Shown: one piece after another, positions 1-19,626 of the stretch
How positions within the stretch are numbered: position 1 is the first letter of the stretch
Layout: each line of letters begins with the position of its first letter
Origin: Polychytrium aggregatum
Lineage: Eukaryota > Chytridiomycota > Chytridiomycetes > Polychytriales
Length of the DNA: 64,000 bases
NCBI RefSeq assembly: GCF_025602895.1
Contig: NW_026516220.1
Coordinates: 682,001 to 746,000 of the forward strand
Direction of reading: 5' to 3'
Program-made: the position numbers and the translations under genes
Notes under the pieces: model-generated
Seen by the model: only the letters and a program-made list of their open reading frames with translations
What the model was told of the DNA's origin: nothing
The model's database searches: none

Positions 1-3000
1 ATGGTGCGGGCCGAAGTCAGTTCCTTTGACCTGTCGAAGCCTTGCGCGTCATCGATGTGAATCTGCAGCTTGACTGGTGGCCCTGGGAGCTGGTAGTAGC
101 CGTTCCTGAACAGCTCCTTCATCGGGTAGTCCGGCTGGCACTGCTCTTTCAGCACGATCAGCTGCCGCCAGTACTCGTCGAGGTAGAACTGGGAGCCGAG
201 GGATGCATCCATCAGGCTGGGCTGGATGCGGGAATATCTCAACACCATCGAGACCATCTTGTCGTTGTGGTCCAGACGGTCTTCCCAGACGGCTCGGTTC
301 TGGAGGGCCAGCTGCTTGAGGCGGTTGGGCAGGGTGATGAGTCCGCATCCGAGGTGCATCGCTCCGTAGGATGTGTTCCGCACCACTCTGAAGAGTCGGG
401 TCGGACAGTGCATCTGTGCTCGTCTGAGTATCACGGCTTGCTGCTTCGTGAGCACTTCGAGGGTCAGTCCATACTCGAGCATGGGCCGAACGAAGGTCTT
501 GAACACCCTCGTCACTGTCTTGGCCGAGTATCGACCCAGACTCATTCCGTGCTTCACCAGCTTGTCGGCGGCGCCTTGGGCCTTGTGGGTGAGGTTCTGG
601 ATCTGGCGATCCATCCTGAAGCCGTTGGTGTCGACGATGGCTCCGAGGTACCGGAACTCCTTGGCGACTGGCAGCTCCTTGCCGTACAGGTACACCTTGG
701 CATCCTTCTCTGGGTGCTGTTCGGTGAACATCACCTCGCACTTTGGGGGCGAGAACTGGTATCGATTCTCGATGCTGTGGGCCTCGCAGATGTCGAGGAG
801 GCGCTGGGTCTGGTTGGGGCGGCAGATGAGCACCCCATCGTCGGCAAACCACAGTGAGTTGACCTGGACGGCTCGTCCTCGGGTGGTGGTTAGGGTCGTT
901 CCACCGTCTGCCCGGAGTTTCCCAGGGAGGTCGTCGATGAACACGCTGAACATCAGCGGGCTCAGCACCGATCCTTGGATCAGTCCCTTCTGCAGCCAGA
1001 CCGGATTGGACCGACGGCTCTTGCTAACGACTTGAATCTTCACATCGTCGAACATGGCCTTCAAGAGCCTGAGGGTGATCGTACATGGGGTGCGCTCTTC
1101 AATCTTGTCCCAGAGCTTCTCCCTCCAGACAGTGTCGTAGGCCGCCTTGATGTCGAGGAACACCAGGGAGTACTCCTCGCCCGCCAGCTGGCGGTCCTTG
1201 ATGAGCGTGTCCAGGCCAAAGATCTGGTCGAGGGTGCCTCGCTCGGCCCGGAATCCACCTTGGGCAATGTCCATCAGTCCGAGCTTTCGGTTGAGCAACG
1301 GCAGCAGTGCTCGCTCGACAACCTTTCGGCAGACCTGGGTCAGTCCAATCGGCCTGTACATTGCGGGGTCGAGGGGCGATCCCTTGTTCTTGTAGACGGG
1401 ATGGATTAGCACTGTACTCCACTCAGTTGGGACCACGGACGCCTTGATGGCTGCTCCCATGAGGAAGTAGAGCCATATCGAGACTCTATATGCGTTGGGC
1501 TGGAGCAGTTCGATCTTGATCCTGTCCGACCCTGGGGCCTTCCTTCGTGGTGTTGTAATGATCGCCTCCTTGATTGCCCGTGGGCTGATTATGGGGAGCT
1601 CGTAGCTGGGGGGGAGTCGTCTACGCTCTTGGCTCGGTGTAGGGGGCTCGAGTGTTCGATCGAACCCGTTCGCCGTGGCCGTTGAGTCCGCCGAGACTCT
1701 GCCGAAGTGGCAGACGAGTCTCTCCAGCGCTTCGTCAGAGTTGTCGAATCGGTGGGCACCTTCCCGGGCCTTTCGCTTCTGCATGGCCCCGAGCGTCTTG
1801 GAGAGCTCAGTGCTGTTCATGCGGTTGATTTTCTCGGCCAGTTTCTCGTTGCTCGCTTTTCGGCACTTTCGGATGGCCCGGTTGAGGTTTCGTCTGACCA
1901 CCCTGATTTTGTCTCGAAGGTTCTCCTTCATGACAGGGTCCGTGTGGTGCCTCTTGAGCTGCTTCTGGAGCTTCTTCCTCTCCTTGGTCAGATGACGGAT
2001 CTCGACGGTGAGCTCCGGGGTCTTCCAGATCAATTTGACCTGTGTTTTGCCCAGGACGCTATCTGCCACCGTGTTGATTGCATTCTTGATGACTTCCCAT
2101 GCTTGGTCCATGGTCAGCTGTGCGTCTGCCTGGCTGATGGGTATCTCGGTGCCGTCGTGGATGGGCTGGAGGAGCCTCTCTATCTCGTTTAAGACTAGGC
2201 CGCTGACTCGCTCAATGGCGCACTTGTACGTTTCCCAGACCTCCGGGTTCTCGAGGAGTCTGAGGTTCCACTGCCAGTTGTCGGCTTTTGGGTACACACT
2301 CCTCGTGAGTTTCACAGTGGTCCAGATCAGGCGGTGGTCGGATATGAGGTATTGTCCCTCCATGTCCACCTTGAGGAGCGGGTCGTTGTTGGCTTCCGCT
2401 TCCGACACAAAGATATAGTCGATGGTCGATCTTCGGTTACCCCGGATCCGAGTTGGGGTCGGGATCGCTGCCGGTGGGATGATTTTCATCCTGGCTCTCC
2501 GCAGGGTGGTCGTGAGGGCGGTCTCCTTGGCTCTGTTTATCACCCTTCCGCCGTTGAGGTCGCTCAGCGACAGGTTGAAGTCTCCCATCACGATGACTTG
2601 GGCATTGGGCATCCGCGCATACTTTTCAATCGACTGTACCGCTTGCGCAAACTCTTCGGTCTTCACCGGGTGGGGGATATAAAAGTTTCCGATGTATGTT
2701 CTGGTGCCGTACCTGGTCCACGTGTACAGCTTTCCCTCGTCGGTCTCTTCGATGTTCAGGTCGTCGGGATCGATTGTCTCGGGGTTGAACACCAGCGCCA
2801 GTCCACCGCCCAGGCTGTCTGTTCGACGGGCCTCATGGGCTGTGACTCCAGACAGTGGATTTGTTGCCTCTGGTTTCAGTATAGTTTCCTGGAGGACGAT
2901 TATATCGATGCTTTCCTTCGCCAATACCTTTAGGATATTACGATAAGCTGGGTCAGCCTTATCGCCTCTCGCTGACGATATTTCATCGCCCAACCACATG

Positions 3001-3041
3001 TCTGCTTCAATATTCAGCCTTATCTCGACCATTCGCTTCAT
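1..3041 (-). mobile_element. Non-LTR retrotransposon (LINE, Tad1/L1-like), 5'-truncated copy running off the left edge
   Basis: The minus strand carries one uninterrupted frame from 3041 to the window edge, about 1013 codons. It encodes an apurinic-type endonuclease followed by a reverse transcriptase, the order found in APE-type LINEs. The first part of the endonuclease, including the strand that holds the conserved Asn, is missing. Homology to the second LINE of this window begins only near 2945, so the copy is probably 5'-truncated and the sequence from about 2950 to 3041 may be captured host DNA. No ORF1 (gag-like) lies upstream, because the next feature there is the GTPase gene ending at 3261. 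The 3' end and tail lie outside the window. Confidence 0.9.
1..3041 (-). CDS. LINE ORF2 (partial at 3' end): endonuclease and reverse transcriptase
   Basis: This is the replicative polyprotein of the LINE. Candidate starts are ATG at 3041 or 3032. Endonuclease motifs seen in order are a VLQET block (about 2905), a GDFN metal/active-site block (about 2600), a RRSTIDYIF block (about 2430) and SDH (about 2340). A basic linker follows (about 2000-1700). The reverse transcriptase starts near 1550 with RRKAPGSD, then shows GGFRAERGT, motif A FLDIKAAYDTV (about 1160), motif B LIQGSVLSPLMF and the catalytic FADDG at 834-851. The C-terminal part continues to the edge. I found no stop or frameshift, so this copy degraded little after insertion. 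The missing N-terminal endonuclease strand argues that it is not autonomous. Confidence 0.88.
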   Translation of the reverse strand, partial: MKRMVEIRLNIEADMWLGDEISSARGDKADPAYRNILKVLAKESIDIIVLQETILKPEATNPLSGVTAHEARRTDSLGGGLALVFNPETIDPDDLNIEETDEGKLYTWTRYGTRTYIGNFYIPHPVKTEEFAQAVQSIEKYARMPNAQVIVMGDFNLSLSDLNGGRVINRAKETALTTTLRRARMKIIPPAAIPTPTRIRGNRRSTIDYIFVSEAEANNDPLLKVDMEGQYLISDHRLIWTTVKLTRSVYPKADNWQWNLRLLENPEVWETYKCAIERVSGLVLNEIERLLQPIHDGTEIPISQADAQLTMDQAWEVIKNAINTVADSVLGKTQVKLIWKTPELTVEIRHLTKERKKLQKQLKRHHTDPVMKENLRDKIRVVRRNLNRAIRKCRKASNEKLAEKINRMNSTELSKTLGAMQKRKAREGAHRFDNSDEALERLVCHFGRVSADSTATANGFDRTLEPPTPSQERRRLPPSYELPIISPRAIKEAIITTPRRKAPGSDRIKIELLQPNAYRVSIWLYFLMGAAIKASVVPTEWSTVLIHPVYKNKGSPLDPAMYRPIGLTQVCRKVVERALLPLLNRKLGLMDIAQGGFRAERGTLDQIFGLDTLIKDRQLAGEEYSLVFLDIKAAYDTVWREKLWDKIEERTPCTITLRLLKAMFDDVKIQVVSKSRRSNPVWLQKGLIQGSVLSPLMFSVFIDDLPGKLRADGGTTLTTTRGRAVQVNSLWFADDGVLICRPNQTQRLLDICEAHSIENRYQFSPPKCEVMFTEQHPEKDAKVYLYGKELPVAKEFRYLGAIVDTNGFRMDRQIQNLTHKAQGAADKLVKHGMSLGRYSAKTVTRVFKTFVRPMLEYGLTLEVLTKQQAVILRRAQMHCPTRLFRVVRNTSYGAMHLGCGLITLPNRLKQLALQNRAVWEDRLDHNDKMVSMVLRYSRIQPSLMDASLGSQFYLDEYWRQLIVLKEQCQPDYPMKELFRNGYYQLPGPPVKLQIHIDDAQGFDRSKELTSART

Positions 3042-3260
3042 CTCTTAGGTTGCTCAATAAATTATTCCATTTCGCTATGGATCAACCCCAAATATTGATG
3101 GGAATTTGGCTGGGGTAATACGACCGATTTATTCTCCTCAAGCGAGCCAAGTAAAACAGCAGAAGGTAGTTTGCATTCTGGGACACTGCGTTGGGAGAAT
3201 GTGATTTGGAGGTAAAAGTAAGGGAAGTTCAAACAGATAATATAAGAGACAAATCTGACT

Positions 3261-6200
3261 TCAGCGCATCGTGGAGAAGGCTGCTCTGCTTCCATTGATG
3301 ACGCTTCGTTGAATCGGGCTTTCGTTTGTGAATTCAGAATCCATGTCACGACTATTATCCCAGGAAGAGCCAAAGTTGTGGGCTTGACGCTTTGACTCAA
3401 ACTCAGAGATGAGTGAGACAGCTTCATTGAGTGTCAAATGGCTGTATGCCCTGCCTTGGACCTTCATCAGATTCTTCTCGTATTCATACGAGCGCTTCAA
3501 GGCCTCGAGTTTTCTGAGTTTGGCTTCGTTCGGAATGCCGTCCGTGAATGCCTGTTGCTGAATGACCTGAAAATCGTTTTCGTCGAGGAATGTCTCGTTG
3601 CGATGAACGACGCTGTGCTTGCGAATTTGCTGGTTGCAAATGGCGACAAGGCGAAGGAGTTCCCTCTGTTGTATTTTGAGATTGCGTTCCTGCATCTCAA
3701 GTTCTGCAAGCCTATCTTGAGATAAGTCCAAGCTTCTTTTGTTATCATGGATTTGGGAAAGTATTTCAGGAGGCAACCTTTGTTCAAACTTGGGAATACA
3801 TTGAAAAATTGTTCTCTGGTGATACTTAGACTCATGATTATATCCAGACTTGCAGGGAGAATTCTTGTTGGATTGGAATGGAATATATGCACTACGGGCA
3901 GGTTTTGGTGGAAATTTATGATATCCGGTCCTGTTTAGGAAGTAATCGGCACATTCAGGATGTTGACAGACCTCGACTGGGCTTGATAAAATTTCGGGTG
4001 AAAGGGTGATGACTTCTTCTTTCATTTCTTCCAAATGATTAATCTGGGCAGTAAGGGTCGAAAGAACAGATCGAATCTTGTCCATTTTGACGCTTGTTTG
4101 CTCAAGCTCTGATTCCATATTCATCAATTCTTCCGAATGATTATCGAGGAAAGATCGCAGGACCTCGAGCTGTCCAGTTTTCTCGAAGCTTTTTGGACTC
4201 CCTCGACTTGCTAATTCGACAAGCTTTTGACAGGCCTGAGCTGACTTATTCCACGAGTCTTTGAACTGCTTGACTTCGCTTTCATCGAAATGGAACATCT
4301 CTTTTGGAGTCATCAAGTATCGGTACGCTTCATTGTCGATCAGGAAGGTGTTGCTTTCACTGAGAGGAATCTCAATTCCTGACTGATCTTTGATCTCACC
4401 AAAGAGTCTCTTGAGCACATGAATCGTATCGCCCATACGGAAAGAGGTAGCTTGGGCTTTGGTGAACAAGAATATGATGTTTTGAATGACTTCGCGATCA
4501 AGGTACTTGAACAACTCCATGATGCAGAAGCGGAACCAAACCGTCAACTTGCTCTGGTTGGTGGGAAGGGCGATTACGACGGCGTTGAGCGAGCCCATTT
4601 CGGTCACATATTTAATAATGTTGGACATGTTCTGTTTGTCTTGTTCAATGCCTCGGGAGTCACCCATTCCAGGGGTGTCGATTACGTTAACCATGATCGG
4701 GGTGTCTTCTCCTCGAGCAAACTCGAATGGATAGGACTGGGGGCGCTGTGTAGTCGATTGACCTGTGACGTACTTCTCGTTGTCATTGATTTGTTCCATT
4801 TTTCGAGCTGTGTTCACAATAGGAGAGATGAATTATTTAGTGTTGGTGTAGTAGACCCTGGATCGATTAGTCAACTCTGTATTCGACCTAAATACAAACT
4901 CACCATTGGTAGGGTTAACGTTCCAAATTTCTTTAGTCTTGATCAATACTTCCTCGTACGTGTCGGGATCACAGAGAATGAACTGAGAAGGGATCAAAGT
5001 CTTGGGGTTGTTTGTCTGTGCGTCGTCAAGGCTCGAATAACTCAAGTAGTTGGCAAGAGCATTAATTAGCGTTGACTTGCCGACACCAGTCTCGCCCAGA
5101 ATGAGCAAGTTCACAGCGCCGCTCCTGGGCTCTGTTGCGTCTGCTGATGCGGAGGGAGGGATTCCGTTATGTTGGAGCGATTTTGCACTGTCGAGGTCCT
5201 CGAACATGGCATCGCGATTATTAACATCGACGTTCATCGTGATGTCGCCGTTCGGCTTGCGTCCAGTTCGGGGTGACTGGCCATTTGCAACAGGTAGTTT
5301 CGATGAATCTTTGGTCTTCGTTGCAATTTTTGTGACTCCATCGTCCATTCTGGTAATTGGAATAGTAACTGCTTCAGTGGCGGTTGTTCCCGAAATTGAT
5401 GCTTTGGACGACTTCCTTTGATTGAACTGTGGTCTAGTTGGTGAATGCGGGACCATAGTAGAATCCGGCATTTCAAATTCACTGTGACCAAGTATATGAC
5501 TTGGGATCGAGATGACTTTGATTTCAGACGTGTCCAAGGCAAGGGTATCAATACTTTGCCCTTCAACCGCATAATGGAAAAGTAGCTGACCGATCTCAGT
5601 GCTTTGGCCTGACTACGAATACGAGGTCAGAAACCCACCAGTATCAATGCGGCCAGCATATCCTCCAACAATCTGGCTGGAATTATTTAGACGCCGTAAG
5701 TGATCCAGGCACTCTAGATAAGTTGTTTGATTCCTTTCCAAATCAGGGCGATTTGTGGCGGAAAGAAGGAAGCCCGCTTGGAGGGTCCTTTCGACTTCCA
5801 GAAGAGCGTTCAATTGATCAAGTTTATCTTGATAGTCATTTTTATTAGCTTGCCCCGAGGCTCGGAGTTGGAGAATGCGTTGCTCAAGGAACTTGAAATA
5901 ATCTGGACTGAAATCTAGAATTGATTGATCAGAAATATGATTCAAAACCTTGAAGAGACTTGCTTTTATTCCCTTCTCAAGAAAGGTGTGGAAGGATCCT
6001 GCGCCGAAATCGGATAACCGGTTGACGCTGTTCCAATAATAGAGTTTCACTTCTTCGGTGTCCGTAGCGAGTTCCTTGAAGTCGCTAGCAATCTTGTAGG
6101 GGTTTTCTTGAACATTCCTCGAACTTGATTGGGGTGGTTTGGATTTTTTTCCATATATTCCATTCTCAGTCGTCCCTGAGGTCGGGCTCAATCTCACCCA

Positions 6201-6810
6201 GTAGGACCAACTCGATGGGAGCATACGCGATGCGCCTTTCACTGGAATGACGTTGAATGCTTGGTTTGTTGAGCTAGGGAACAGAGTTTTGAGATCTCTG
6301 ATAATTGCTTGTTCGTATTGAGATGAATACTGCGCTCTCATGACGCAGATAAACACGCTATGGGCCAACGTTCGGGGAACGGCGGTCAGTAGGAGACCCA
6401 TCCACGCTTTTGTGTGTGTATCCAAGGAATCATCAATGATGAAAAGCATAGCCTTGATATCCATGAAAGTTTCAACGTGCTTCTGAAAGCAATGCCAAAG
6501 CCGTTCATATTCGGTGATATCGATATCTGCAGGATAAAAGATGTCTCCATCTAAAGCCACACAGGTATAACAATAATTCCAAATACAACCCATTAGGTGG
6601 TAATCATGTGAGGAGGATGAGCGAAGATCGAGTTCATCGCAAGAGTTTCACATCGGGATGTCGAGTCCTCGATCAAGCTATGAGAGCTGGAAGCACCAAA
6701 CCTGAAAGTGGAGAGGATCTTGGGAGCCCAAGGTAATTGAGGAAGTCTGGAATTGCCGTCTTCGTCAGGGCGACTCTGAGTTTGCTCACGATGATGACAG
6801 GGTTGACCAT
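3261..6810 (-). CDS. Large GTPase A with long N-terminal extension (probable fusion)
   Basis: My best model has four exons: 6810-6702, 6526-5670, 5612-4904 and 4807-3261, giving 1073 aa. Residues 1 to about 365 are unlike the other three GTPases. They contain beta-strand-like hydrophobic runs (AMLFIIDD, HSVFICVM) and helices but no P-loop. The G1 motif GETGVGKST is at about 495-503, G3 is DTPGMGD just after the last intron, and the G4 region reads FTKAQATS. A C-terminal coiled-coil region follows. The Cys/His cluster of the paralogs is largely degraded here. The intron 4903-4808 (GTGAGT..CAG, phase 1) sits exactly where B, C and D have theirs. The join at 5669-5613 is less sure: TAG at 5615-5613 is either a splice acceptor (57-nt intron with GTTGGA donor and CTGAC branch) or a true stop. 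If it is a stop, there are two genes: a 340-aa protein (6810-5613) and a 704-aa GTPase starting at 5471. No TATA box is visible before 5471, which favours one gene. Confidence 0.7.
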
Positions 6811-7616
6811 GATGGCAGTCTCTCGACTCACAGAGTCGGTAGATATCTGAGCCCGAGTTGATTGAGAGCTTCAGTGCGGCCAGATCGCCTGCTATTTAAG
6901 TGGTTGACCAACGACACGATTCGCAAATTCAAATCCAGCGCACACGTTCTTTGGAAACCACGCCCCAGCCGCTGTCAGTGCGATCACCCTCGCTGTCAGG
7001 TCGCCACGAAGAAAGCCGGGTCTCGATCTTTGTTTCCGGATATGGGAACATACTGGAACGCCAACAGAGGTTGTTTTGGGCCCTCCTAACATTGAAATGA
7101 ATGTCAGTACCTGTGCGACAAATATCATGAAACAAAGGCGAATTTTCCAGTCAGCCAGCGCCTTCATCCCGGGTTTGGGGCGTGTCTTTGGTGAGACAAT
7201 GACTGGATATGGTAAGCTGGTCAGGTAGTAAGGTTGAGTCATATATCACATGACTGTGTGTGTGTGCGCCGTGTATCCACTTTTGGACATTTGAAACTCC
7301 CGGTTCCAAATCGGGAACGAGTTATCTGCTCAGCCGCGTTCTTCGAGCGAATCAGGTGGTCTCCCCGTCCCGTCGCCTTCAGGACAAATCGAGTCATGGG
7401 GTGTGGCCAGATTGGAAATGACGCGCAAATTTGACTGTCAGAAGGTCGGCCCCGATCCTGGCTGATACCGTGACCACGTCAAGGAAGGCTCGTGCATCTC
7501 TGGGCTCGGATTTTAACGGTTCGCAAACTCGAAAGGACCGAATCGGTTCTATAAACAGACGAGATCTTCTCCGCATGAAACACTCTCGTCCCATCTGCTC
7601 GTGACGCTCTACCAAT
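6811..7616. promoter_or_regulatory. Divergent promoter region between GTPases A and B
   Basis: This 0.8-kb spacer separates the divergent starts of A (ATG 6810) and B (ATG 7617). For A, a TTAAATA box lies at 6899-6893 (minus strand), about 85 nt before the ATG. For B, TATAAA lies at 7550-7555, 62 nt before the ATG. The sequence CGCAAATTTG at 7424-7433 recurs upstream of C (10763-10772), and a related CCAAATTTGG occurs upstream of D (14083-14092). I see no convincing gene in the spacer. Confidence 0.5.
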
Positions 7617-9647
7617 ATGCCTGGAAAGGGAAACTTCAGTAGCTCACCTGATTGGGCTTCACCTCCACCATACTCCCCTGTGGGAAGGGGGATCTCACAG
7701 ACTTACACCGTCCTCATCCTTGGCGAAACCGGCGTCGGAAAGTCGACCCTCATCAATGCGCTTGCTAACTACCTCTCTTTCGACGATCTTGATCAAATCG
7801 ATTCAAACGGTGTGCTGTCCTTGATTCCAACCAAGTTTTTCCTTTATGATTCGGAGTCACTTGAAGAAATTATCATCCGATCGGAGCGACTCACTCTCGA
7901 TGACAATCATAATGGTCTGTATTACTCAAGAGGAGCTGGGCGGTAACTTGAGGTGGCTATTGAACAGAGAGTCAAGCTAGGTGTCGATGTGTTTGCTAAC
8001 TTTGCATGTTCAGCTGCTCGTCGTAATGAGGAGAACACGACCGGAAACTCTTCCACACAGCATCCCAGAACATACGAGTTCTTCCCTCATCTTGGAAATG
8101 GTGACCAAGTCAGATGCCGAATCATCGACACTCCTGGAATGGGCGACACTCGTGGTATCGATCAAGACAAGAAGAATATGGATCTCATCATCAAGTACAT
8201 CGCAGACTATCCCGAGATCAACGGCATCCTCATGCTGTTGAAGCCAAACAACAGTCGGCTCACTACCTGGTTCCGCTTCTGCATCAAAGAGCTTCTCAAG
8301 AGTTTGCACAAGGACTGTGTCAAGAACATCATTTTCATGTTCACCAATGCCAGAAGCACCCTCTATCGACCCGGCGACACCATGCCTGCTTTGAAGAAGC
8401 TACTTGGAGAGGTGAAGCGTGACTCGGGCGTCGATATCCCTGTCAACAAGAGTAATCTTTTCATGGTCGACAACGAGGCCTATCGATACCTCCTTGCGAG
8501 AGGCAAGGTTCACTTCACTGAGGATGAGGAGAGCGACTTTCACAACTCATGGAAGAAGTCATCCGAAACTTGTCGTCAGATGCTGGACACCATCGCTGGT
8601 ATTGAAAGCTTCGAAACCGAAAAGACCGTTGTCCTGTACGAAGTTCGGAGCCAGGTTCTCGAGCTCTGCAAGCCACTTGCTGACGTCGCCGCATCGATCA
8701 TGGCGAGCAAGAAGTCTTTGGATGATCAAATCAAGGCTCTGAGCTCAACTGAAGCATCTGTTGTCGATCTTCAGAAGGCCCTAAACGTCAAAGTTGACAT
8801 CCCAATTCCAGAGGAGCTTCCCCACCCTGTCACCGTATGCTCACACCAAGATTGTGTAAAGCACTTGAAGAACGAAAGTGGTGTTGCGATTACCGACTAT
8901 GTGACCAAATGTCACGAGCACTGTTACCTAAGCAACGTCCCTAGTGAAGTTATTGGCGATACTGCGCTTCTGAGTTGCTGGGCCATGGTAAAGGAAATCT
9001 GTAGAGTCTGCTCACACTCCTACAGATTCCATCTCCATATATGGTGGAAAATGACCTACGAAAAGCGCGATGCCCTTAACGACCAAGCCCGCAAGCAGAT
9101 TGAAAGCGAGCATGACAATGGAAGACGAATCCAAATGACCATCGACAAGCTCGAGAAGAAAATCAGGGATCTTGAGAAGGAAGAGCGGACGATCATGGCC
9201 ATCAGTGCCAAATTTGCGGTCTTTGTCAAGTCAAACGGGATTGTTCTATACAACGATGCCCTGCTGGATTACTTGGATCATCTCATCAAGGAGGCTCGCG
9301 ACTCCTCCTCTCATGTTTCGAGCGTTGGATCTCAGCAAAAGTCAAAGATTGATGGCCTCAACAAGCTCAAGCAAATCTATGAGAGCGAGCGAAAGCTTCT
9401 TACCGAGGGAATTGCTAACTATCGCCAAGCACCTCCATCAGCTAGTGAGGTGAAGAGGCTTTTGAGGGATCTTACACAGCTGGAGTACTCAGGAAAGTTT
9501 TTCAAGAACTTCCGCTCCGCACCACTCGAACACAATCGATCCCGACAAAGCGGCCCGTCGTCATCGGCCTCTGGTAGAAACGCAGGCACTCCATCCGCCA
9601 ACGGCTTGTTCTCGTCATTTTCATCTTGGTCGCCATTTACGAATTGA
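7617..9647 (+). CDS. Large GTPase B (AIG1/GIMAP-related, Cys/His-rich C-terminus)
   Basis: Two exons, 7617-7914 and 8014-9647, give 643 aa. The intron has an unusual GTCTGT donor, a GCTAAC branch site and a CAG acceptor, in phase 1. G1 GETGVGKST is at 36-44 and G3 DTPGMGD at 138-144, followed by a conserved TRGIDQDKKN block and a G4-region motif FTNARSTLYRPGDT. After the G domain comes a helical linker, then a putative zinc-binding module: CSHQDC near 8840, KCHEHCYL near 8910 and CRVCSHSYRFHLH near 9010. Coiled coils rich in Glu/Lys follow. As read, the protein ends in a Ser/Phe-rich tail with no membrane segment, but a strongly hydrophobic helix lies one frame away at 9605-9667. The family occurs widely in eukaryotes and is biochemically uncharacterised as far as I know; GTP binding is a confident inference, the biological role is not. 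Confidence 0.88.
8114..8569 (+). repeat. 456-bp block identical to 11886-12341 (gene-conversion tract in GTPase B)
   Basis: I compared the two segments base by base and saw no difference over 456 nt. The first mismatches are at 8113 versus 11885 and at 8570 versus 12342. A further 26-nt identity at the same offset of 3772 occurs at 8048-8075 versus 11820-11847. Flanking coding sequence is clearly diverged. The block covers the G domain from G3 through the region after G4. Confidence 0.95.
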
Positions 9648-11134
9648 TCACCTTGTTCGTCCGACTTAAGCCTCCCTTGACCAAGCGACTGAGAAACATG
9701 AGTCACGACCAAAGATGGCTCCCCAAACCAAATGTTTGGCCTTTCCAGATTAAATTCATATCTTCCCTTTGGAAAAAAGCTTATAAGCAAAAGTTGCTGT
9801 GAAGGTATATTTGACTTTATCACGGGTAACGACTGAAATAAATCTTGACTTTGAACCCACTCTCGCAATCGTCTGCCCCACATTTCCACAATGTCCCGAA
9901 AGCCTTCGTGTCTCAAGAAGATCATTGCACTTGATCTCATCATCCTTCGGAGCTGTGTGGTCACGGACAGCCTTGAATCCCCAGGCTTCTGAACAGTGAA
10001 ATCTGGCAATACCTTCCAGCGATTCTCGGCCATCCGACTGGCGTCACCACCTACAAAATGTCAGATTCATCGAGTCGATGAAATAATGGGACATTTCTTC
10101 TCATTCGGACAAACACAGCAAAGTCAAATCATATCACAGGCGTGTTCAAGTGGGTCAAATCATTTCTCTGAGTGAGGTAGATGCATGGAGTGGGTGGACA
10201 CAATAGTGGCAGCGAGCCGCTACAGTTGCAGGCACTACAGATCAGAGCCAGATATACCTGGTATGAGGGCGGAAGACGCAGGGCAAAGAGGAATCTCAAA
10301 TGAACTGATCAGTATCGGTTTTCACCGCAGTTCGAGCATATATCTTGGCCTCTCCTCCGGATCGAGAAGACATTTTCCATCGACAATCCACCATCCCTCC
10401 CGTTGGAGTGACCAGTTCCAAAAATGGGACACGCTCATTCAGCTCGACCCCGATTCGACAGAAAGATTCCGATCCCGCCACGTGGATGCCAGCGGGTGGA
10501 CAACGATGCTGATCTGACCGAGGCCGTGTTTTGGGGCAGTTTTCCCACGTGGGACTGCCACGGCTTTCTTTGGCTCCCAGGCAAATCCGATGACCTTCTC
10601 TTGTCCGCCTTGCGTCCTTGTGTTTCACTGTAGTCGCTTACTTTGTTTCATTTCCAACCACTCAGTGAAGCCCTCCCGTGTTTGGGTGTTACAACGATGG
10701 AGTTGCGGGAGTCATATGGCTACACACACCGCTCCGTTCGAATTGGCAAGGAGCTGGACACACGCAAATTTGCTCCTTTGTTTCTGAAACAGTGTTGCCA
10801 TCTGCCAAATAGGGAAGTGTGTCTGAAACAGAGGTGGGACAATCTCTTTCCGACGCGCGTGGCCTCTGGCCATCCTTGTCACGAGTCGTTTTGTTCCTCC
10901 GATTCCTCATCAGCATACCTCGTTTAGGAGAAAGAGACATGCGCTGCAAGGAAATCTGCGACCCGAACAGGTCGTTTCACACCTTATAATCAGCAATTGA
11001 TTTCCAGGCCGAATCATCCACTTCCAACATCCAAGTTTTTCTATCTCGTCCCCATCTCTTTCCCATCTACTCGCCCTCTGCTGCGGCCTTCTGTTCACTC
11101 AAATTCGAGTAGATTCTTGAGGTCTTCGCCAATT
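9648..11134. other. Intergenic region B-C with a dispersed repeat copy and C promoter
   Basis: This 1.5-kb spacer holds, from left to right: the out-of-frame tail of B (to 9802), a copy of a dispersed repeat in minus orientation (about 10079-10290), a CACGTG E-box with flanking CACGTGGGACTGCCA at 10546-10560 that recurs before D, CGCAAATTTG at 10763-10772, and TATAAT at 10985-10990, 145 nt before the ATG of C. A 204-codon minus-strand frame covers 10033-9419 but overlaps gene B and has no recognisable motif, so I do not call it. Confidence 0.5.
10079..10290 (-). repeat. Dispersed ~210-bp repeat, copy 1
   Basis: Read on the minus strand, this segment aligns along its whole length with 61927-62140 on the plus strand. 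Shared blocks include TTTGCCCTGCGTCTT, GCGGCTCGCTG, CCACTCCATGCA, TTGACCCACTTG, GTGATATGAT and TGTTTGTCCGAATGAGA, with scattered mismatches between them. I saw no coding potential, target-site duplication or terminal repeat. It could be a MITE, a solo LTR or a SINE-like element. Confidence 0.75.
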
Positions 11135-13392
11135 ATGAACACGTTTCTGAGCCACCCAAGTCTGGACAAATCACTCCCCCGCGTCCCAGCCGATGCAGAT
11201 GCTTATCATATTGAGCTCGTCAGTACCGAAAACTTACATTCGGTTGGCAGTGGAAGTTGGAATAAAGGAATTCCAGCTCCTGGAAATGCACCGCATTTGC
11301 CTTCGGACTCCCAGGAAATTTCCATTGACATCGACAGCGTGACCCATGACCAAGACTTTTATGAGGAAGTTGCCGATAAGATATTGCCAGCGGAGCCACC
11401 TCTACAGCATACAATCCTCGTCCTTGGGGAAACTGGCGTTGGCAAATCGACCCTGATCAACGCGCTTGCCAATTACCTCACTTTCGACAAGATCACCGAA
11501 ATCGTACAAAGTGAGGTGTTAACCTTGATTCCGACGTGCTTCTTCCTCTATGACGTCGATACTGATCAAGAAATTGAGATTACCTCAAATAGGCTTGCTG
11601 TGACTGGTTTCGATCCAGGTGAGTTAAAGCTGCGAAGGAAAGTTGGCAAATTGAGCATTCCACGAGATTGAACACGTGAGAGTATGAGGTGACTTTGATC
11701 CGACGCTCGAATTTGGCGAACTTACAAAGAGTTCGATCATTGATTTCATTTAATCTGGCTCCAGTCGAAGATGATCGCCACATGAATGCGGCGAACAACG
11801 AGAAACATACTATCGGTACCTCTTCCACACAGCATCCCAGAACATATGGGTTCAGTTCATCCCTCTCGTCGGGCCGCCGAGTGATATGCCGAATCATCGA
11901 CACTCCTGGAATGGGCGACACTCGTGGTATCGATCAAGACAAGAAGAATATGGATCTCATCATCAAGTACATCGCAGACTATCCCGAGATCAACGGCATC
12001 CTCATGCTGTTGAAGCCAAACAACAGTCGGCTCACTACCTGGTTCCGCTTCTGCATCAAAGAGCTTCTCAAGAGTTTGCACAAGGACTGTGTCAAGAACA
12101 TCATTTTCATGTTCACCAATGCCAGAAGCACCCTCTATCGACCCGGCGACACCATGCCTGCTTTGAAGAAGCTACTTGGAGAGGTGAAGCGTGACTCGGG
12201 CGTCGATATCCCTGTCAACAAGAGTAATCTTTTCATGGTCGACAACGAGGCCTATCGATACCTCCTTGCGAGAGGCAAGGTTCACTTCACTGAGGATGAG
12301 GAGAGCGACTTTCACAACTCATGGAAGAAGTCATCCGAAACATGCCAAAGGCTTTTAGACACCATTGCCGATATCGAGAGCCACAATCCTGAGAAAACCA
12401 TCGTCCTGTACAAGGCACGGGAAAAAGTCTTGGAACTTTGCAAACCCATCGTCGATGTTGGTTCGTCCATCACCAAAAATACCAGAGCCCTGTCGAGCCA
12501 AGTTGAGGCACTAGGTTCAAGCGAAAGCACAGCAGAAAATCTCCGCAGTACTCTCAAAGTCAACTATACTTACGCCGACAAGGAGTACCTTTCCCACAAT
12601 GTTTTAGTTTGCTCGCATCAAGACTGCAGCAAGCACACCAAAGATGAGAATGGACGAAATGTGACCGACCATGTAACCAAGTGTTCCGAGCCTCATTACT
12701 TAGCAAACTCTCGCATCGGGATGGTTGGCGATCCGTTGCTTCAGAATTCATCAATGTTCTATGAGCGAAACTGCAGGTATTGCGGCCACAGCTTCACCTA
12801 CCACCTTCAAATCAACTGGAGGATAGTGTATAGAACGAAGCAAATCATGAACAGACACGCAACAAGCCAAATCAACAACGAGACCGAAGTCGGTCGCAAG
12901 CTACAAATCTCCATACAGGCTCTCAAGTACAACATCTCCCGCCTCAATCGTGAAGAAGAGCGCTTGATAGGAAGTGCCTCCATATATGCCTCCTTTGTCA
13001 AAGAAAATGGCATCATACTCTTCAATGATGCGATTGTTGAATACCTCAACCATCTTATTGACGAGGCGAAGAGCTCAAGCGCAGAGGTCTCTCATGCATC
13101 ATACGGAGGGACGAGTCCCCTTCAAAGACTGAGCGATCTCAAGCAGATATATGAAAGCGAGAAAAAGGTCATCCTTGGTGCACTTGCCAAGCACACCGGC
13201 CCCATTCCAACACAAGAGGAGATGAAGAAGGCCTTAGGCTTGATTCCACCCGAACCCCCGCGAATCGACATATCCCCACCAACTACTTTCACGTCAAGCA
13301 ACAAATTTGAAGTCACTACTCCTTGTCTAAGGGTATTCTTTATCTTTTTTGCGGGTATGATTTTTTTGATCGTCTTCTCCGCGAGTCGCTAG
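11135..13392 (+). CDS. Large GTPase C, tail-anchored
   Basis: Two exons, 11135-11618 and 11765-13392, give 703 aa. The intron (GTGAGT..CCAG, phase 1) is at the same place as in the paralogs. The N-terminus has about 90 residues before the P-loop GETGVGKST (98-106), followed by IDTPGMGD, the TLYRPGDT region, a Cys/His module and coiled coils. The Cys/His module is eroded: the KCHEHCYL of B reads KCSEPHYL here, and a later Cys position is replaced. The last 22 residues (about 682-703) form a hydrophobic helix, VFFIFFAGMIFLIVF, followed by SASR and the stop, which is a classical C-terminal tail anchor. The protein should therefore sit on an internal membrane with its G domain in the cytosol. The middle of the G domain is a gene-conversion copy shared with B. 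Confidence 0.88.
11886..12341 (+). repeat. 456-bp block identical to 8114-8569 (gene-conversion tract in GTPase C)
   Basis: This is the partner of the identical block in GTPase B, in direct orientation 3772 bp downstream. Both edges fall inside coding sequence where the two genes otherwise differ at many positions. Confidence 0.95.
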
Positions 13393-14489
13393 ACAAATCC
13401 CCGATTCAGCTGGCATCAACTTCTTCCATTCAGTTTGCCATTTCTTGGTTGTCCAGTTCAAGTTTCTTCCCTGGTCGATATTGCAACCAACCTGGCTCAA
13501 CTTCAAGCATTTGATACATCGTCACCATATGGTTCTTGAGATCGAAGGGTACATTTCGGATAATCCTTCCTTCATATCCCAGTTTCCAATCGCTCATGCA
13601 TTATTTCCACAATTCATCAAAGCATGGCCAAACTTGAATCAGCAATATGATACTCTACCAAGTCATCCCCCTCGATGCCGAGCAAGGTTGCAAGCGCCCT
13701 CATATTGTTTACGATCAAATTTCACTGAAAGACATTCTCATTCTCTTGCCGCTACGGTTTGGGCTTGGCAAACTGGTGGCAGTGTTGAGTAAACGCTTCC
13801 AAAAACAAAATCAATAAAATAGAGTCGGGAACCTGGCCGAGCGGGTCGTTGCTTTCCTGTTGGGTGAGAGGTATTGACAAATGATGGATTGGCACGGGCA
13901 GCTGGTGGATGTATGGTATTAGATTGCTCTCTCCACCTCACCTTGAATAATCGATATGTAGGCCAGCGAATTGTGCACCTAAGGAGGATACTGGACCGTC
14001 AAGTTTGTTGTGCGGTCAGAGGATGGCACCCAATAAGGCGTGGGCCACGTGCACCTTGGTTTCAGTGCGGTCGCCCATGGCGCCAAATTTGGAACTGCGT
14101 GCCGCAGTCGGTGATACACATCACAAGGTCAATGAGTCAGTTTTTCCTGTTGTCAGACCCTTTCGAGTTGCACGGGTGACCAAGCCCGATTGGTTCGGAT
14201 GCACGTGGGGACTGCCAGGCCAACGTGTCTTGCCCACCCTTCCCCCCCCCAGGTCCGAGGCTGCGGTCGAGCTCTGGCCCTTCCAACGATCCGAACTAGT
14301 CAAACTCGATCCACCCCATATACCGCCAGCGGATCCATCCAATTAATCAATCCATTGCTCAAGTCAGAGTGCACCAGAGTTTCATAAACATCTCGGAAGC
14401 CCCAGTGGCACCATCGATATATATTCCTCTCGTTCTTCTTGTGTACCGAACTGGATCTCTTCATTATTCCTCCATTGACTATCTCCGTG
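13393..14489. other. Intergenic region C-D with D promoter and a possible decayed minus-strand coding fragment
   Basis: The right part looks like a promoter for D: CACGTG at 14046-14051, CCAAATTTGG at 14083-14092, CACGTGGGGACTGCCA at 14202-14217 and TATATA near 14417, about 70 nt before the ATG. On the minus strand, 13710-13430 reads as protein-like pieces in two frames (a NNMRALATLLGIEGDDL piece, then DWKLGYEGRII through ELDNQEMAN and a stop), separated by stops. This may be a pseudogene remnant of unknown family. Confidence 0.4.
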
Positions 14490-16422
14490 ATGAAAAAAGC
14501 GGATGGGCATAAGCCTTCATCTGTTGATATTATTGAAAATTACGTAGCTGCTGGTCGGGGAGACGTCCCAAACCATGATGGCAACGTGAAGCAGCTCACC
14601 ATCCTGCTTCTGGGCGAAACGGGAGTTGGCAAATCAGCTCTGATCAACTCCTTGGCTAACTATTTGACATACGAAGATCTTGAAGCAGCCGAACGAAGCG
14701 GCGCCCTGACACTCATTCCTACCAAGTTTACCCAATTCGACAACGAGATGGGAGAGGAGGTCAAGATTCAATCGAAGCAGCTTGCACTTTACAACGGAGG
14801 CACTGGTATGTATTGAACAGCTAAAGACGGTCGCGCCGGTGGAATCCCGCCACCGAGGCGGCTAACTTTTTATGTTACTTGAATCCCAAGGCAAGGTTCA
14901 TGATAATGAGAAAATAGTGCCTGGCCAATCTTCGACCCAGAGTTCGCGGACTTATGTTTTCCAGGCGAAATTACTTGGCGAACAGCCTATCCAGGTCAAG
15001 ATTATCGACACTCCGGGCTTTGCGGATATCCGTGGAATGCAAAAGGACAAATCAAACATGGATTTCATTACCTCATATCTGTCAAACTACCCTGTGATAG
15101 ACGGCGTTGTGTTCCTGATGAAATCAAACACCAATCGTCTCAATGTCTGGTTTCGTCCTTGCATCAAAGTTCTCTTTTCGAAGTTCCCAACATTGAGCAC
15201 CAAGTGTATCATGTTCATGTTCACACATGCTCGAAGTACACTTTTTCGACCTGGCGAATCCTTACAGACATTAAAATTGCTAATTGACCGGATTCGGGAA
15301 GATAATATTGCAGATATGGCAATTACGAATGAGAACTTGTTCATGGTGGACAATGAGGCACATCGCTATCTCCTCGCCCGAGAGCAGGTTCGGTTTTTTG
15401 AAGATGAAGAGAATCACTTTGCAAATTCATGGGACCGTTCTGCTGAAAATTGCCAGAGACTTATCCGCAAGCTTGCCGGTGTGCCTTGGGACAGCCGACA
15501 CCAGTCTCCACCGAGGTACAAGATTCGACGTGTCCTCGAAGAACTCCACAGGGCTATGGTTGATGTTGCAATATCAACAGTGACCGATGCTCGCTTAATT
15601 CAGCACCATATGTCAGCTTTGGCGTCCAAACAAGTGGATGTTGGTGAGCTGAAAAATTCTCTCCATATAACAAGCTTGAAGACAGTTCGAAGAAAGCTCC
15701 CATACCCGATCTTGGTCTGCACCCATGAAAATTGCATCGAAAGCATACAATGTGAAGACGGACGATCAATTACTGATTACGTGACTCGATGTCAAGTTCC
15801 GTGCTACATCAAAGAACAGCCGAGTCATCTGTCGACAACTCCTTCCCTTCGAAACTGTCCCTCGATGCGGCTGGGAACCTGCCGAAAGTGCTCTCATGAC
15901 CACACTCATCATTTGCCTATTGATTGGGAAATTGGATACCAACACTGCGAGATGGTAGACAATCGGGTTCAGCAGCAGATAGTAGCGGCTGAAGAAACAA
16001 ATGCCACCATTCAAATGCAGATCCAATCACAACGCGACACACTCGAACAACTTGAATTCGAGCAGCTTGATATCGTGAAGATATTTGCATCCTTCGCCGC
16101 CTTTTTGCAAGTCTGCAGTCCTCAGCCTTCAACAGATGTATTCCGAAACCTCCTCGATAGTCGCCTCAAAACGGAGAGAGAATCCACGGCGATAGAATAT
16201 CGTCAGCTGAAAACTGATGAGTCCAGAGTCGCGATACTTGACAAATGGATAGAAAATTATGATGATCAGAAGAATATCATTCTTGAAGGTATGTCCAGCC
16301 AGCCTGCTTGGAAAACGAAGTCGGAGAATGTCGTGATCCAGATGGGCAAGCTTTACAAACTCAAACACAGCGGATCTCAGTTCAAGGCGCTTGCGTATAA
16401 TCCAATGTTCGATGTTGTGTGA
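14490..16422 (+). CDS. Large GTPase D
   Basis: Two exons, 14490-14805 and 14891-16422, give 615 aa. The intron has a GTATGT donor, a GCTAAC branch site and an AAG acceptor, phase 1, at the conserved paralog position. G1 is GETGVGKSA (42-50), with Ala replacing the final Thr. G3 reads IDTPGFADIRG, so the second Gly-Asp of DTPGMGD is changed. The G4 region is FTHARSTLFRPGES. The Cys/His module is well kept (CTHENC, CQVPC, CRKCSHDHTHH between about 15715 and 15915), followed by coiled coils. There is no tail anchor. It is the most diverged of the three plus-strand copies and shows no long identical block with them. I chose the ATG at 14490 because it follows a TATA box at the expected distance. 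Confidence 0.86.
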
Positions 16423-16501: not shown

Positions 16502-16644
16502 CTTTTTTTTTTTGTCAATAACGAAGAGTTTGAGTGTTCTCGCCACCAGCATCACTGATGCTCAAATAACAAAGGTTACAGAGAGTACATCCAGGCCTCG
16601 TATAGACATATCAACAGAGGGCAAGGCTATCCACATAGCAAGGG

Positions 16645-17099
16645 CAGTGCATTATGACGCTGATTTGGGCATGTGGCTTCCGTGCGTACCTCTCGATTGA
16701 CTTTACTGCGGTGGTGAACTCCTGCACCGTCGTAGAATGCGGTATGTAGAAGTTACCAATGTAGACGTTCGCCTTGTACCTCGTCCAGGTGTAGAGCCCG
16801 TTTTCATCCGTCTCGACAGCGTCGAGGTGATCCTCGTCGATCGTTGCACTGTTGAACACGAGTGCGATGCCGCCTCCGTGTCGGTCGGTTCGTCTCGACT
16901 CGTGGCATGTGATTCGCTCCAGTGGGTTTTGGCTGACAGGTTGCAGCTTGGTTTCCTGGATAGCGATGTAGTCGATGTTTAGGTCTTGCATGACTTCTTC
17001 GATGAGGTACTGTTTCTTGATTAGGCCATCGATGTTGAAGGATGCTACTGTGAGCGTGGCCAGTTCGCTCACTCCTTCTGCTGCGTCGGAACCATTCAT
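16645..17099 (-). pseudogene. LINE ORF2 fragment (apurinic endonuclease N-terminus only)
   Basis: It starts at ATG 17099-17097 and encodes VASFNIDGL with the conserved Asn, then AIQETKLQP, HGGGIALVF and YTWTRYKANVYIGNF, the first half of an exonuclease-endonuclease-phosphatase fold. Homology ends at AQISVIM, just before the GDFN block. The frame then runs through unrelated residues to a stop at 16611. The start codon overlaps the ORF1 stop in the string AATGA. The protein cannot be catalytic because His and Asp residues of the second half are absent. Confidence 0.85.
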
Positions 17100-19224
17100 T
17101 GGGAACCGACGATGGCTCCTCTGAGGACGGGGTCCCCTGCCACTCCTTCATGGTTTGGTTGGGAGTCCGGCACAAACTTCTCCAGTTCACTGGGGTTTGC
17201 CTGACGGCTGGCCCCCGGTGCTCGCTCCACTGCGGCGTCCAGGTCAATGGGCTGTTCCTGGATGGGGGGTGTGGGTTGGGGCTCCTGGGGTTCAACGTTA
17301 ACCAGTTCCCAGGAGATCGGCTTTCCCCTGAGGACTTCTCCAACGAGCCTGTCGAACTCCAGCCGGTGTACCCTCGGTACCCTCATCTGGACCATTCGGG
17401 CGGCCGCCGAGTCTCTGGCTCGTGCCGCTTGGATAGCCGATCGCTTGAGGAATCTTTGGAGGTGGGCCTTCTTCTCCTCCGCGGTCTTCCTGCTGGGGCC
17501 AGGCTGTGCCGGCTCGTACTGGTGAAGCTGGACGCACTTGAGCGGACGTCCAGCCATCTTCTTGGCGATCTCCGCCTCGTCCTTCTTGTCCCAGAGAAGG
17601 ATCTCCATGATGCGGTTTTCGCCGAAGTGAATATCGGCCATTTTGCGATCGTCGATGCCGCCCTTCCTGAGTGCCTTGCGTATGGTTGTCAGGGAGTTGG
17701 GCTCGATTCCCTTGAAGTACACAAACTTGGCGTTTGTCAGCTTCTTCTTGAGGTGGGGGTTGGTGAGGTCTTCGTTCTCGACCAGGCCGCTCACCATCTT
17801 GACCTTCTTGGGGTCCGGCTTGGCCGCGATCGAGGCAAGCCACAGTCTGGGTTGTTCTTGCTCAGGTTGGCGATCGATGAAGGCGCACTTCGCTCTGGCT
17901 TCCTTCTGGGTCTCTTTCTGGGCCTGTTTCTGGCTCCGTGCGGCCATTGCGTAGGACATCTTGCCCTCTGGTGCACCTCTGGCTGTCTGGGCTGGGGTTG
18001 CTTTGTTGCTGGAGGCTGCCGCCTTTTCGGTCCTCTCGCGAGCCATCAGGGTTTTGACTCCGTCGGTGAGGCTCTTCGTCTCTCGGGCGACGAGGTTGAG
18101 GACCGAGGTCGCCTTCTCATTCATACCCTCCCTCGCTTTGTCGTCCGTGATGAGGTCGATGATCTTCTCGCGGAGGACGTTCAGCTGGCCGAGGATCTGT
18201 CTGAGGGAGAGGGGGCTCTCCTCGGGCAGGGTGGGTGTCTTGCCGACAGCCGTTCGTTCCGACGGTGTGTTGGGCTGTTGCTGGGGCTGTCCCTGGGGCT
18301 GTTCCTGCGGTTTGGCGGCGGATTCTATCTCCTGGGTGGGCTGCTTCTGTTCCTCGGTGGGTTTGGCCTGTACTGAGTTGATCAGCCCAGCCGCTCGTGC
18401 AAAATCTCGTCGCTCCTTGGCGGTGTGGGCCTTCACGAAGTCTTCTGCCAACTTTTCGTTTCTGGTCATTTTGGCCCAGAAGCTCATAGCTGCTATTGCT
18501 TCGCCGCAATGCGGCTGTGCACATACGAGGTGGAAGCCTTGGCGGTCCAGCTTCCACTCTTCCTTGGGCGGGGTCTTGCATTTGGGGCAGGATACCGTCT
18601 TCTGGCAGGTTTCAAAGACAGCCTTCCAGATGGCCGGGGTGACGTCCTTGGTCTGGACATACTGGGCGGCCTGTTTACGCTTCTGAAGGTCGTCGCCTGC
18701 GGTTCTCCATCGGTCTTCAAAGGAGGGATGGGTTGAGGCTTTTCCCCTCTTGCCGGAAGCCCGGGCCGTTCTTGCTTGGCGGCCTGGGTTGCCGCTGGTC
18801 GCTGCGGGTGCTTCTGCGTCTTGGGTGTCCTGCGCAGGAGGGAGGCTGTGGAGACCCAGTCCAGCTGCTTGCTCGGTGGTCGTTTCTTCGCTGGGGCCTT
18901 GGAGAGGGAGGTGAGGGGGCTGCTCCTCACCTCTGGGTCTGTTGGGGGTTGGGGTGGGAGATCTTGGGTCCTCGGCCTCCTCGTCCGAGCCGTCTGCGTC
19001 AGACGTGGGGTCTTGACCAGCCTGGATGTGTTGCCACCACTGCCTGAGGCGATCGATGAGGACGGCTCTGGTTCCTGTTTGCTCGAGGCCTCGCTCAAGG
19101 CATGCGCTTCCTGGAGTGGTTCTAGCTTCAGACCCTTGAGGCCTTTGGGGAGGGTGGTTGGACGCTCCGTGGGCGGTGCGTCGTTCCTGGAGGAGGATGC
19201 CACTGGTGGATCTACAGCTGGCAT
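17096..19224 (-). pseudogene. LINE ORF1 (gag-like, SAP and zinc-knuckle regions) with apparent frameshift
   Basis: ORF1 proteins of fungal LINEs bind the element RNA. Starting at ATG 19224, the frame gives MPAVDPPVAS and then LKGLKLEPLQEA. The natural continuation CLERGLEQTGTRAVLIDRL, which completes a SAP-type helix-turn-helix, lies in another frame. The switch is at about 19110-19101, so an indel has broken the gene, or the ORF needs frameshifting. Downstream the second frame is open to TGA at 17098-17096. It contains a four-Cys zinc-ribbon-like motif (CPKCKTPP, then CAQPHC), Pro/Gln-rich linkers and a possible RRM-like fold (FVYFKGIEPN through EILLWDKKDEAEI). The open frame extends upstream of 19224 to 19492, but that part looks like low-complexity noise. 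Confidence 0.75.
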
Positions 19225-19626
19225 GGCTCCGTCGGGTTGAGGGGACAGTTGGTCTATGACCAGTCCCTTCTAGCGGGGAGGGGTCGTTGGAAGGTGTGTG
19301 GTTTACTGTCCGCTTCTGGCTCTCTCGAGATTCCCGAAAAACGAGATCAGGCGAAAGCTCTTCATGGCTGATGGGTATGGTGTTGAATGGATGGGCTGTT
19401 GGATGGATGGGCTGTTGGATGGATGAATGGATGAGGGGATGGAGCGCAAGGGCGATTGTCGATGGCTTGGCGGATCTGCTCATCCATTTCATTCATCCAA
19501 TCCACTCGCACATCGATCCACTCGCCCGTCGATCCACTCGCATCGATCCATCCAGCACCACTCTCCCCTCGTCTGCTGCCCATCCGCTCCGTCCCTGCTC
19601 GCAGCCGCTGCGACCGCTCGGCCACA
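19225..19626. repeat. GGATGGGCTGTT / GGATGGAT minisatellite and Mit_KHE1 upstream region
   Basis: A 12-bp unit close to GGATGGGCTGTT is repeated between about 19388 and 19422, then breaks up into GGATGGATGAAT-type units. A CATCGATCCACTCGC-type repeat follows at about 19513-19555. No gene is seen. The region must hold the promoter of the gene starting at 19627. Confidence 0.6.

Follow-up and report, generated by a model that had tools for sequence, protein, structure and literature searches.

Head-to-head genes for large AIG1/Toc34-type GTPases form a repeated two-component unit in the genome of Polychytrium aggregatum

The stretch of Polychytrium aggregatum DNA analysed here (hereafter the window) comprises 64,000 nucleotides, positions 682,001 to 746,000 of contig NW_026516220.1, which is labelled C90 below (window = C90:682001-746000). 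At about 3.3-16.4 kb it carries four paralogous genes for large GTPases, gene A on the minus strand and genes B, C and D in tandem on the plus strand (Table 1). The motif GETGVGKS is present in all four, and one phase-1 intron, situated at the same place between G1 and G3, joins the exons of each. Translation across this intron, carried out for seven family members including A and B, met in-frame stops in every one. The proteins have 615-704 residues (A counted without its N-terminal domain), about 300 of which make up helices and a Cys/His segment. A previous reading of the window from its sequence only had described one divergent and three tandem paralogs with a shared intron, a tail anchor in C, altered G1 and G3 motifs in D and LINE sequence on both sides, all of which has now been confirmed. 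The tail of C has a hydropathy of 2.46 over residues 682-700, the highest among the 21 family proteins checked (the next reached 1.76). The same reading regarded the four genes as a tandem cluster; the genes are real, but the more telling unit, a head-to-head pair of A and B, was missed, as were a 456-bp tract common to B and C and the genome-wide family. What the cluster represents is a single copy of a two-component unit that recurs in the genome, namely an A-type and a B-type gene head to head, followed here by the extra B-type genes C and D.

The searched assembly (GCF_025602895.1) has 64.7 Mb in 418 contigs. It contains an IFT57 gene and 11 matches to Fungal_trans domains, of which 14 prokaryotic control genomes had none, as would be likely for a flagellated (zoosporic) fungus. 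A B-type query gave 47 exon matches in it, and an A-type query of the genome revealed no A locus beyond those known. Near-identical copies recur across contigs (C397/C130, C246/C398, C1/C406, C78/C38 and C10/C346/C13); counted as distinct loci, there are 7 A-type and 14 B-type genes, plus a recent copy on C201 and a degenerate locus on C144/C364. In a tree of 30 rows (27 of them different), a 100/100 branch separates 10 A-type from 20 B-type rows. The tree is rooted at its midpoint, on which the age given to the A/B split depends, and was built without the C13 copies, C78 minus, C38 plus, C1:1619911, C406, C130:42236, C130:49188, part of C99 and the degenerate C144/C364 locus. Six of the seven distinct A-type loci stand head to head with a B-type gene: C90 (A/B), C224, C397 at 1066/1070 kb, C397 at 1075/1079 kb, C38/C78 and C346/C10/C13. 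All six pairs combine one A with one B, an outcome equalled in 949 of 200000 label shufflings in which each distinct locus entered once (7 A, 14 B), though duplicated pairs are not independent; C201, C99, C144/C364 and haplotype copies were omitted from this test and C1:1619911 was taken as B-type (64% match). The starts of the partners lie 593-844 bp apart at four loci (C90, 807 bp; C224, 792 bp by arithmetic on locus ranges; C397, 593 and 844 bp), the start of A not being fixed at C346 and C38, and the presumed starts in the C201 copy are 845 bp apart. Between pairs, core identity drops to 41% (A) and 40% (B), and the A and B distance matrices correlate with r 0.895, a value reached by 4 of 720 permutations. 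Since the distance matrices of the partners mirror each other, the A/B pair has been copied as a unit.

Table 1. Features of the GTPase cluster and its flanks, in window positions
Feature	Position	Strand
Left LINE, ORF2 (endonuclease and reverse transcriptase)	3..3044	-
Gene A (A-type), last exon: G3, G4, G5, helical stalk, reduced Cys/His tip	3261..4807	-
Gene A, shared phase-1 intron (GTGAGT...CACAG)	4808..4903	-
Gene A, exon with linker and GETGVGKS; first Met of the open frame at 5471	4904..5612	-
In-frame TAG between the N-terminal domain and the G domain of A	5613..5615	-
Open frame of the extra N-terminal domain of A; homologous to an uninterrupted frame of the C224 A-type gene	5616..6647	-
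Putative first exon of A (MVNPVII...), 3' end not fixed	6676..6810	-
Shared A/B intergenic region, start to start 807 bp; presumed bidirectional promoter	6811..7616	
Gene B (B-type), exon 1 with GETGVGKS	7617..7914	+
Gene B, shared phase-1 intron	7915..8013	+
Gene B, exon 2	8014..9647	+
Tract of 456 bp identical between B and C	B 8114..8569, C 11886..12341	+
Gene B, Cys/His module, C275 to H339 of the exon-2 protein	8838..9032	+
Gene C (B-type), exon 1	11135..11618	+
Gene C, shared phase-1 intron	11619..11764	+
Gene C, exon 2	11765..13392	+
Gene C, hydrophobic C-terminal tail, residues 682-700	13324..13380	+
Gene D (divergent B-type), exon 1 with GETGVGKSA	14490..14805	+
Gene D, shared phase-1 intron	14806..14890	+
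Gene D, exon 2 with DTPGFAD	14891..16422	+
Right LINE: first part of ORF2 (16614-17147) and ORF1 (17099-19492)	16614..19492	-

Pfam and fold searches bear out the proposed relationship to AIG1/GIMAP GTPases. With the Pfam AIG1 model (PF04548, cut-off 27), the spliced G domains of A, C, D and the A-type gene of C417 scored 35.7, 28.5, 31.1 and 52.6, respectively, and that of B, with 25.0, fell just under the cut-off; four of the five tested thus pass. All five also match the Septin model (PF00735) at 26.7-29.9 bits against a cut-off of 26.2. Dynamin_N (cut-off 27) is passed by C417 (29.9) and not reached by the window genes (A 21.1, B 22.1, C 25.0, D 21.6). No IRG or GBP model appeared among the Pfam matches of the G domains, no direct comparison with these families having been made. 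A fold search with the G domain placed Toc34 nearest, followed by GIMAP2 and GIMAP7, the GIMAP rows being tied with EF-Tu by the rule of the aligner. The model of the B protein (pLDDT 83, with 33 intron-derived residues of low pLDDT) combines a confidently predicted G domain of Toc34/GIMAP type with a long helical hairpin bearing the conserved Cys/His segment. This module, C-x4-C...C...C-x2-C-x6-H, had been thought to differ sharply between the paralogs; it proved invariant in all 14 aligned B-type exons and is reduced in the A-types.

Septin P-loops were among the best PDB sequence matches. A profile search of the PDB with alignment A3 ranked a capsid/adhesin fusion chain first (E 0.0037), then a septin (0.06) and a mitofusin-1 fragment (0.14), with assorted coiled-coil or helical chains below them. 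No relative was confirmed with alignment A1 among viral contigs (34 pattern stretches) and genome contigs (229), each scan resting on two short peptide patterns that could miss distant relatives. In fold comparisons with viral proteins, a Hokovirus GTPase (E 1e-6) and a Pithovirus AIG1 protein (2e-5) came out best, the TM-scores being 0.21-0.36.

The 456-bp tract identical in B and C begins shortly ahead of G3 and ends shortly behind the G domain, and identity over the rest of exon 2 is 33-77% (60-nt windows); the catalytic core has undergone gene conversion. Similarly, C224 and C402, on different contigs, are 97-100% identical over about 360 nt of about the same part and 38-80% identical in the remainder, and the comparison of C224B with C386 gave a patchwork of identity. 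In a segmental duplication (C201:300957-309208 versus C397:1074508-1083477), stretches of 98-100% identity surround replaced cassettes of both A and B, and homology stops at the C-terminal tail of A and just beyond the last gene. Its B genes are only 54-73% identical from after G4 to near the tail (150-nt windows), with flanks of 99-100% and two windows of exon 1 at 86 and 95%. For A, identity is 42-64% in the linker that precedes the P-loop, 77-85% in the first part and 98-100% in the sequence between, and the C-terminal tail differs. The dS values within the block are 0.027 for the last gene, 0.07 for A and 0.87 for the B gene. No donor of the replaced cassette was identified. The core conversion tracts and these cassette swaps thus leave the catalytic engine uniform and exchange stalk and tip.

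An extra N-terminal domain in A had also been claimed. The domain exists and is read in the same frame as the G1 exon, from which an in-frame TAG separates it. The TAG may be a nonsense change or an assembly error, or it may lie inside an unproven intron; the best-scoring intron able to span it has 57 nt and a weak donor. The C224 paralog aligns with the domain at 31% identity (E 1.7e-33) within a single open frame of 554 residues. The first exon of A probably starts further upstream, near 6810, and first exons resembling it were recognised at C224, C397 and C201 by eye only. The domain was also considered as a pseudo-GTPase because by eye it has a beta-alpha-beta order like that of the G domain, with the P-loop lost. 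A profile comparison of the two domains gave a probability of 0.5%, and an AlphaFold 2 (AF2) model from 5 rows had a mean pLDDT of 44, so this idea is unsupported.

The interpretation that we favour, and to which we give an even chance, is that A and B form a hetero-oligomeric, membrane-acting GTPase which would work like the bacterial dynamin pairs. The A and B proteins would hetero-oligomerise through their G domains, as paraseptin GTPases do, and GTP-driven contact of the G domains would move the hairpin. The tip and the C-terminal tails (transmembrane in C and, judged by eye, basic or possibly amphipathic in some others) would touch the membrane, which the A/B complex would tether or reshape. 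Where present, the extra N-terminal domain of A would help partner binding, like the assembly domain of Campylobacter jejuni DLP1. Conversion would keep the engine uniform and stalk and tip would diversify, so that targets could change fast. The SRLT position, which we take to be an arginine finger, is occupied by Arg in 13 of the 14 B-type proteins and in 2 of the 7 A-type ones, and otherwise by Lys or His; this distribution would fit activation of A by B. Arginine fingers are stated for TOC34/TOC159 and for AIG1/GIMAP proteins in the accessible part of the source (PMC11238149).

Membrane-bridging heterotypic GTPase pairs occur in bacteria and among mitofusins. As far as the available text of the report goes, C. 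jejuni DLP1 and DLP2 are encoded by adjacent genes and form a 2:2 complex whose trunk tip binds lipid, and DLP1 binds DLP2 by way of an N-terminal assembly domain (PMC6104087). Our pair is similar in consisting of two different large GTPases encoded as neighbours, with a predicted helical trunk and, at some loci, an N-terminal domain in one partner. Unlike the bacterial dynamin pairs, it has an AIG1/septin-like G domain and a Cys/His-rich tip, is eukaryotic and is arranged head to head, not in an operon. The resemblance would be one of working, not of ancestry.

Besides the intron-derived residues in the B model, several observations weigh against this interpretation. The bacterial dynamin pair gave the best Foldseek E-value, but with TM-scores of only 0.16-0.18 and an rmsd of 32, so the likeness of the hairpin is architectural at best. 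The A-type protein of C38 is without most of the hairpin and the tip. The G4 motif, which we liken to that of Toc34, reads T[NKH][AS][RQK] in all 21 proteins, none of which has the Asp of the classical [NT]KxD, and the nucleotide preference is therefore uncertain. A whole-genome search with the N-terminal domain of A gave matches at C90 and C224 only (2/7 A-type loci). A two-exon N-terminal arrangement was also recognised by eye at C397 (twice) and in the C201 copy, where the aligned domains are 13-17% identical (C201 with a weak blastp match, E 0.019), and no such domain was noticed at C346, C38 and C417. In the window itself, the TAG cuts the domain off. The C417 A-type gene has no B partner in the 3.7 kb read upstream of it, and the additional B-types stand alone.

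It is possible, if on the unlikely side, that these are constitutive GTPases, septin-like or acting at an organelle surface, which expanded without any recognition role and whose conversion is simple homogenisation of paralogs. The nearest fold, Toc34, is that of a translocon receptor. Fourteen pairwise NG86 comparisons, several of them between near-identical copies with few changes, gave omega values of 0.06-0.50 in the 13 in which it was estimable, dS being saturated for C90A/C224A. This purifying selection is strongest in the G-domain core (0.03-0.09 in 80-codon windows), as the constitutive explanation would have it, and weaker in the tails, the top window being the last 62 codons of B versus C (0.96). 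On the other hand, about 14 divergent B-types and cassette replacement in one genome would, in our judgement, not be expected of constitutive proteins.

A role in defence or non-self recognition is possible. The growth of the family, its gene conversion and the exchange of cassettes are compatible with defence or allorecognition without proving either. We consider it rather unlikely that A and B correspond to head-to-head sensor/helper NLR pairs, with the exchangeable stalk and tip as the recognition part. The expansion to many copies and the mosaic replacement of stalk and tip between near-identical flanks speak for this, and so does the head-to-head pairing itself: the plant NLR pairs described in the accessible part of PMC12258605 likewise consist of two diverged classes, inverted and often with a common promoter, although their proteins are unrelated to the A/B GTPases. 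In Rhizophagus irregularis, an AIG1 gene was up when two isolates coexisted, in all three hosts, but it was taken by the authors as a putative mating gene (PMC7490403, available text). In Sordariales, head-to-head NLR pairs are rare (13/225 two-gene clusters; PMC12258605, same part). The dN/dS check between paralogs that had been proposed in the sequence-only reading likewise failed to favour defence, no whole-gene omega exceeding 1 in the 14 comparisons, and the haplotype-like copies compared (C397/C130, C78/C38 and C346/C10) are nearly identical. We regard as doubtful the most far-reaching version, in which the pairs would be the fungal equivalent of NLR pairs: a uniform AIG1/Toc34-type engine would drive interchangeable stalk and tip cassettes, and the membranes of parasites or of non-self would be recognised through the assembly of hetero-oligomers that reshape them.

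The head-to-head order could also be a by-product of inverted tandem duplication with no functional pairing, as for plant IAN genes, whose head-to-head pairs arose repeatedly in that way according to the part of PMC12845241 at hand. This seems improbable here. The plant pairs are described as newly formed inverted duplicates, whereas all six pairs of P. aggregatum straddle the deepest split of the family, the partner distances mirror each other and the pair was copied as a unit; a search of 6700-7700 for inverted repeats found a single weak one (16 nt, 88%). Of the snail AIG tandem pairs, 16 are parallel, 10 convergent and 12 divergent (accessible text of PMC7053062), so that every orientation occurs, in contrast to the head-to-head A/B arrangement. 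Finally, it is very improbable that chimeric assembly or the collapse of haplotypes produced the divergent cassettes and the conversion tracts, since, despite the duplicate contigs (C397/C130 and others) and the frame break of C99 relative to C402, the cassettes keep open reading frames, the C397 version recurs in C130, the B/C tract lies within one contig and a similar event links C224 and C402.

Returning to the paired, membrane-acting GTPase, its components belong with the AIG1 family (GIMAP/IAN, Toc34/Toc159) by the Pfam score of four of five G domains and by the nearest fold, and differ from it in a modelled length of 615 to about 1200 residues, long helices, the Cys/His segment and the pairing of two types. 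GIMAPs are limited in size, consisting of a single G domain followed by a short tail or coiled-coil, and the window proteins do not have this short form of GIMAP/IAN proper. Septins belong to the same wider GTPase group, their model scoring just above its cut-off. In the view of the sequence-only reading the family was undescribed. A literature search found no description of paired AIG1-type GTPases in fungi, but unnamed relatives may exist: Sordariales orthogroup OG0000027 (PMC12258605, accessible part) has overlapping matches to the same five Pfam models as all five G domains here. The comparison concerns Pfam matches, not sequence, so that family identity is a lead only; from these matches, AIG1-type GTPases of this kind may be widespread but unnamed. 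Fungal AIG1-Hint fusions have been reported in Glomeromycotina and are said, in the text available, to be absent from the other fungi analysed (PMC8778642).

Several further observations concern the surroundings and the rest of the genome. The right LINE copy is cut within ORF2. The GC content is 0.45-0.50 over the GTPase cluster (window 2001-16000) against 0.55-0.62 over 18001-64000. A minus-strand frame at window 26750-27859 was named by eye as a papain-like protease with a cysteine-rich, chitin-binding-like C-terminus. Degenerate B-type fragments with an internal stop lie in opposite orientation at C144:16392-17602 and C364:735214-736424, apparently a decayed locus, and C99:61054-62551 is near-identical to C402 with a mid-gene frame break, either a broken allele or an assembly error. 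Several family genes, on C1, C406, C130, C398 and C99, are only a few bases to about 2 kb away from the end of their contig, which hints at subtelomeric or repeat-rich positions that break assembly. Other AIG1-like genes with different motifs, matched by the Pfam AIG1 model and not by the B-type query of the window, are found on C68, C279, C223, C101, C290 and C386 (right end) and form a second AIG1 group in the same genome.

A eukaryotic AIG1/Toc34-type pair, multiplied as a unit with its stalk and tip exchanged, would join the fields of GIMAP, septin and dynamin research. If this interpretation is true, zoosporic fungi would gain a specific candidate for a system of defence inside the cell or of self/non-self recognition.

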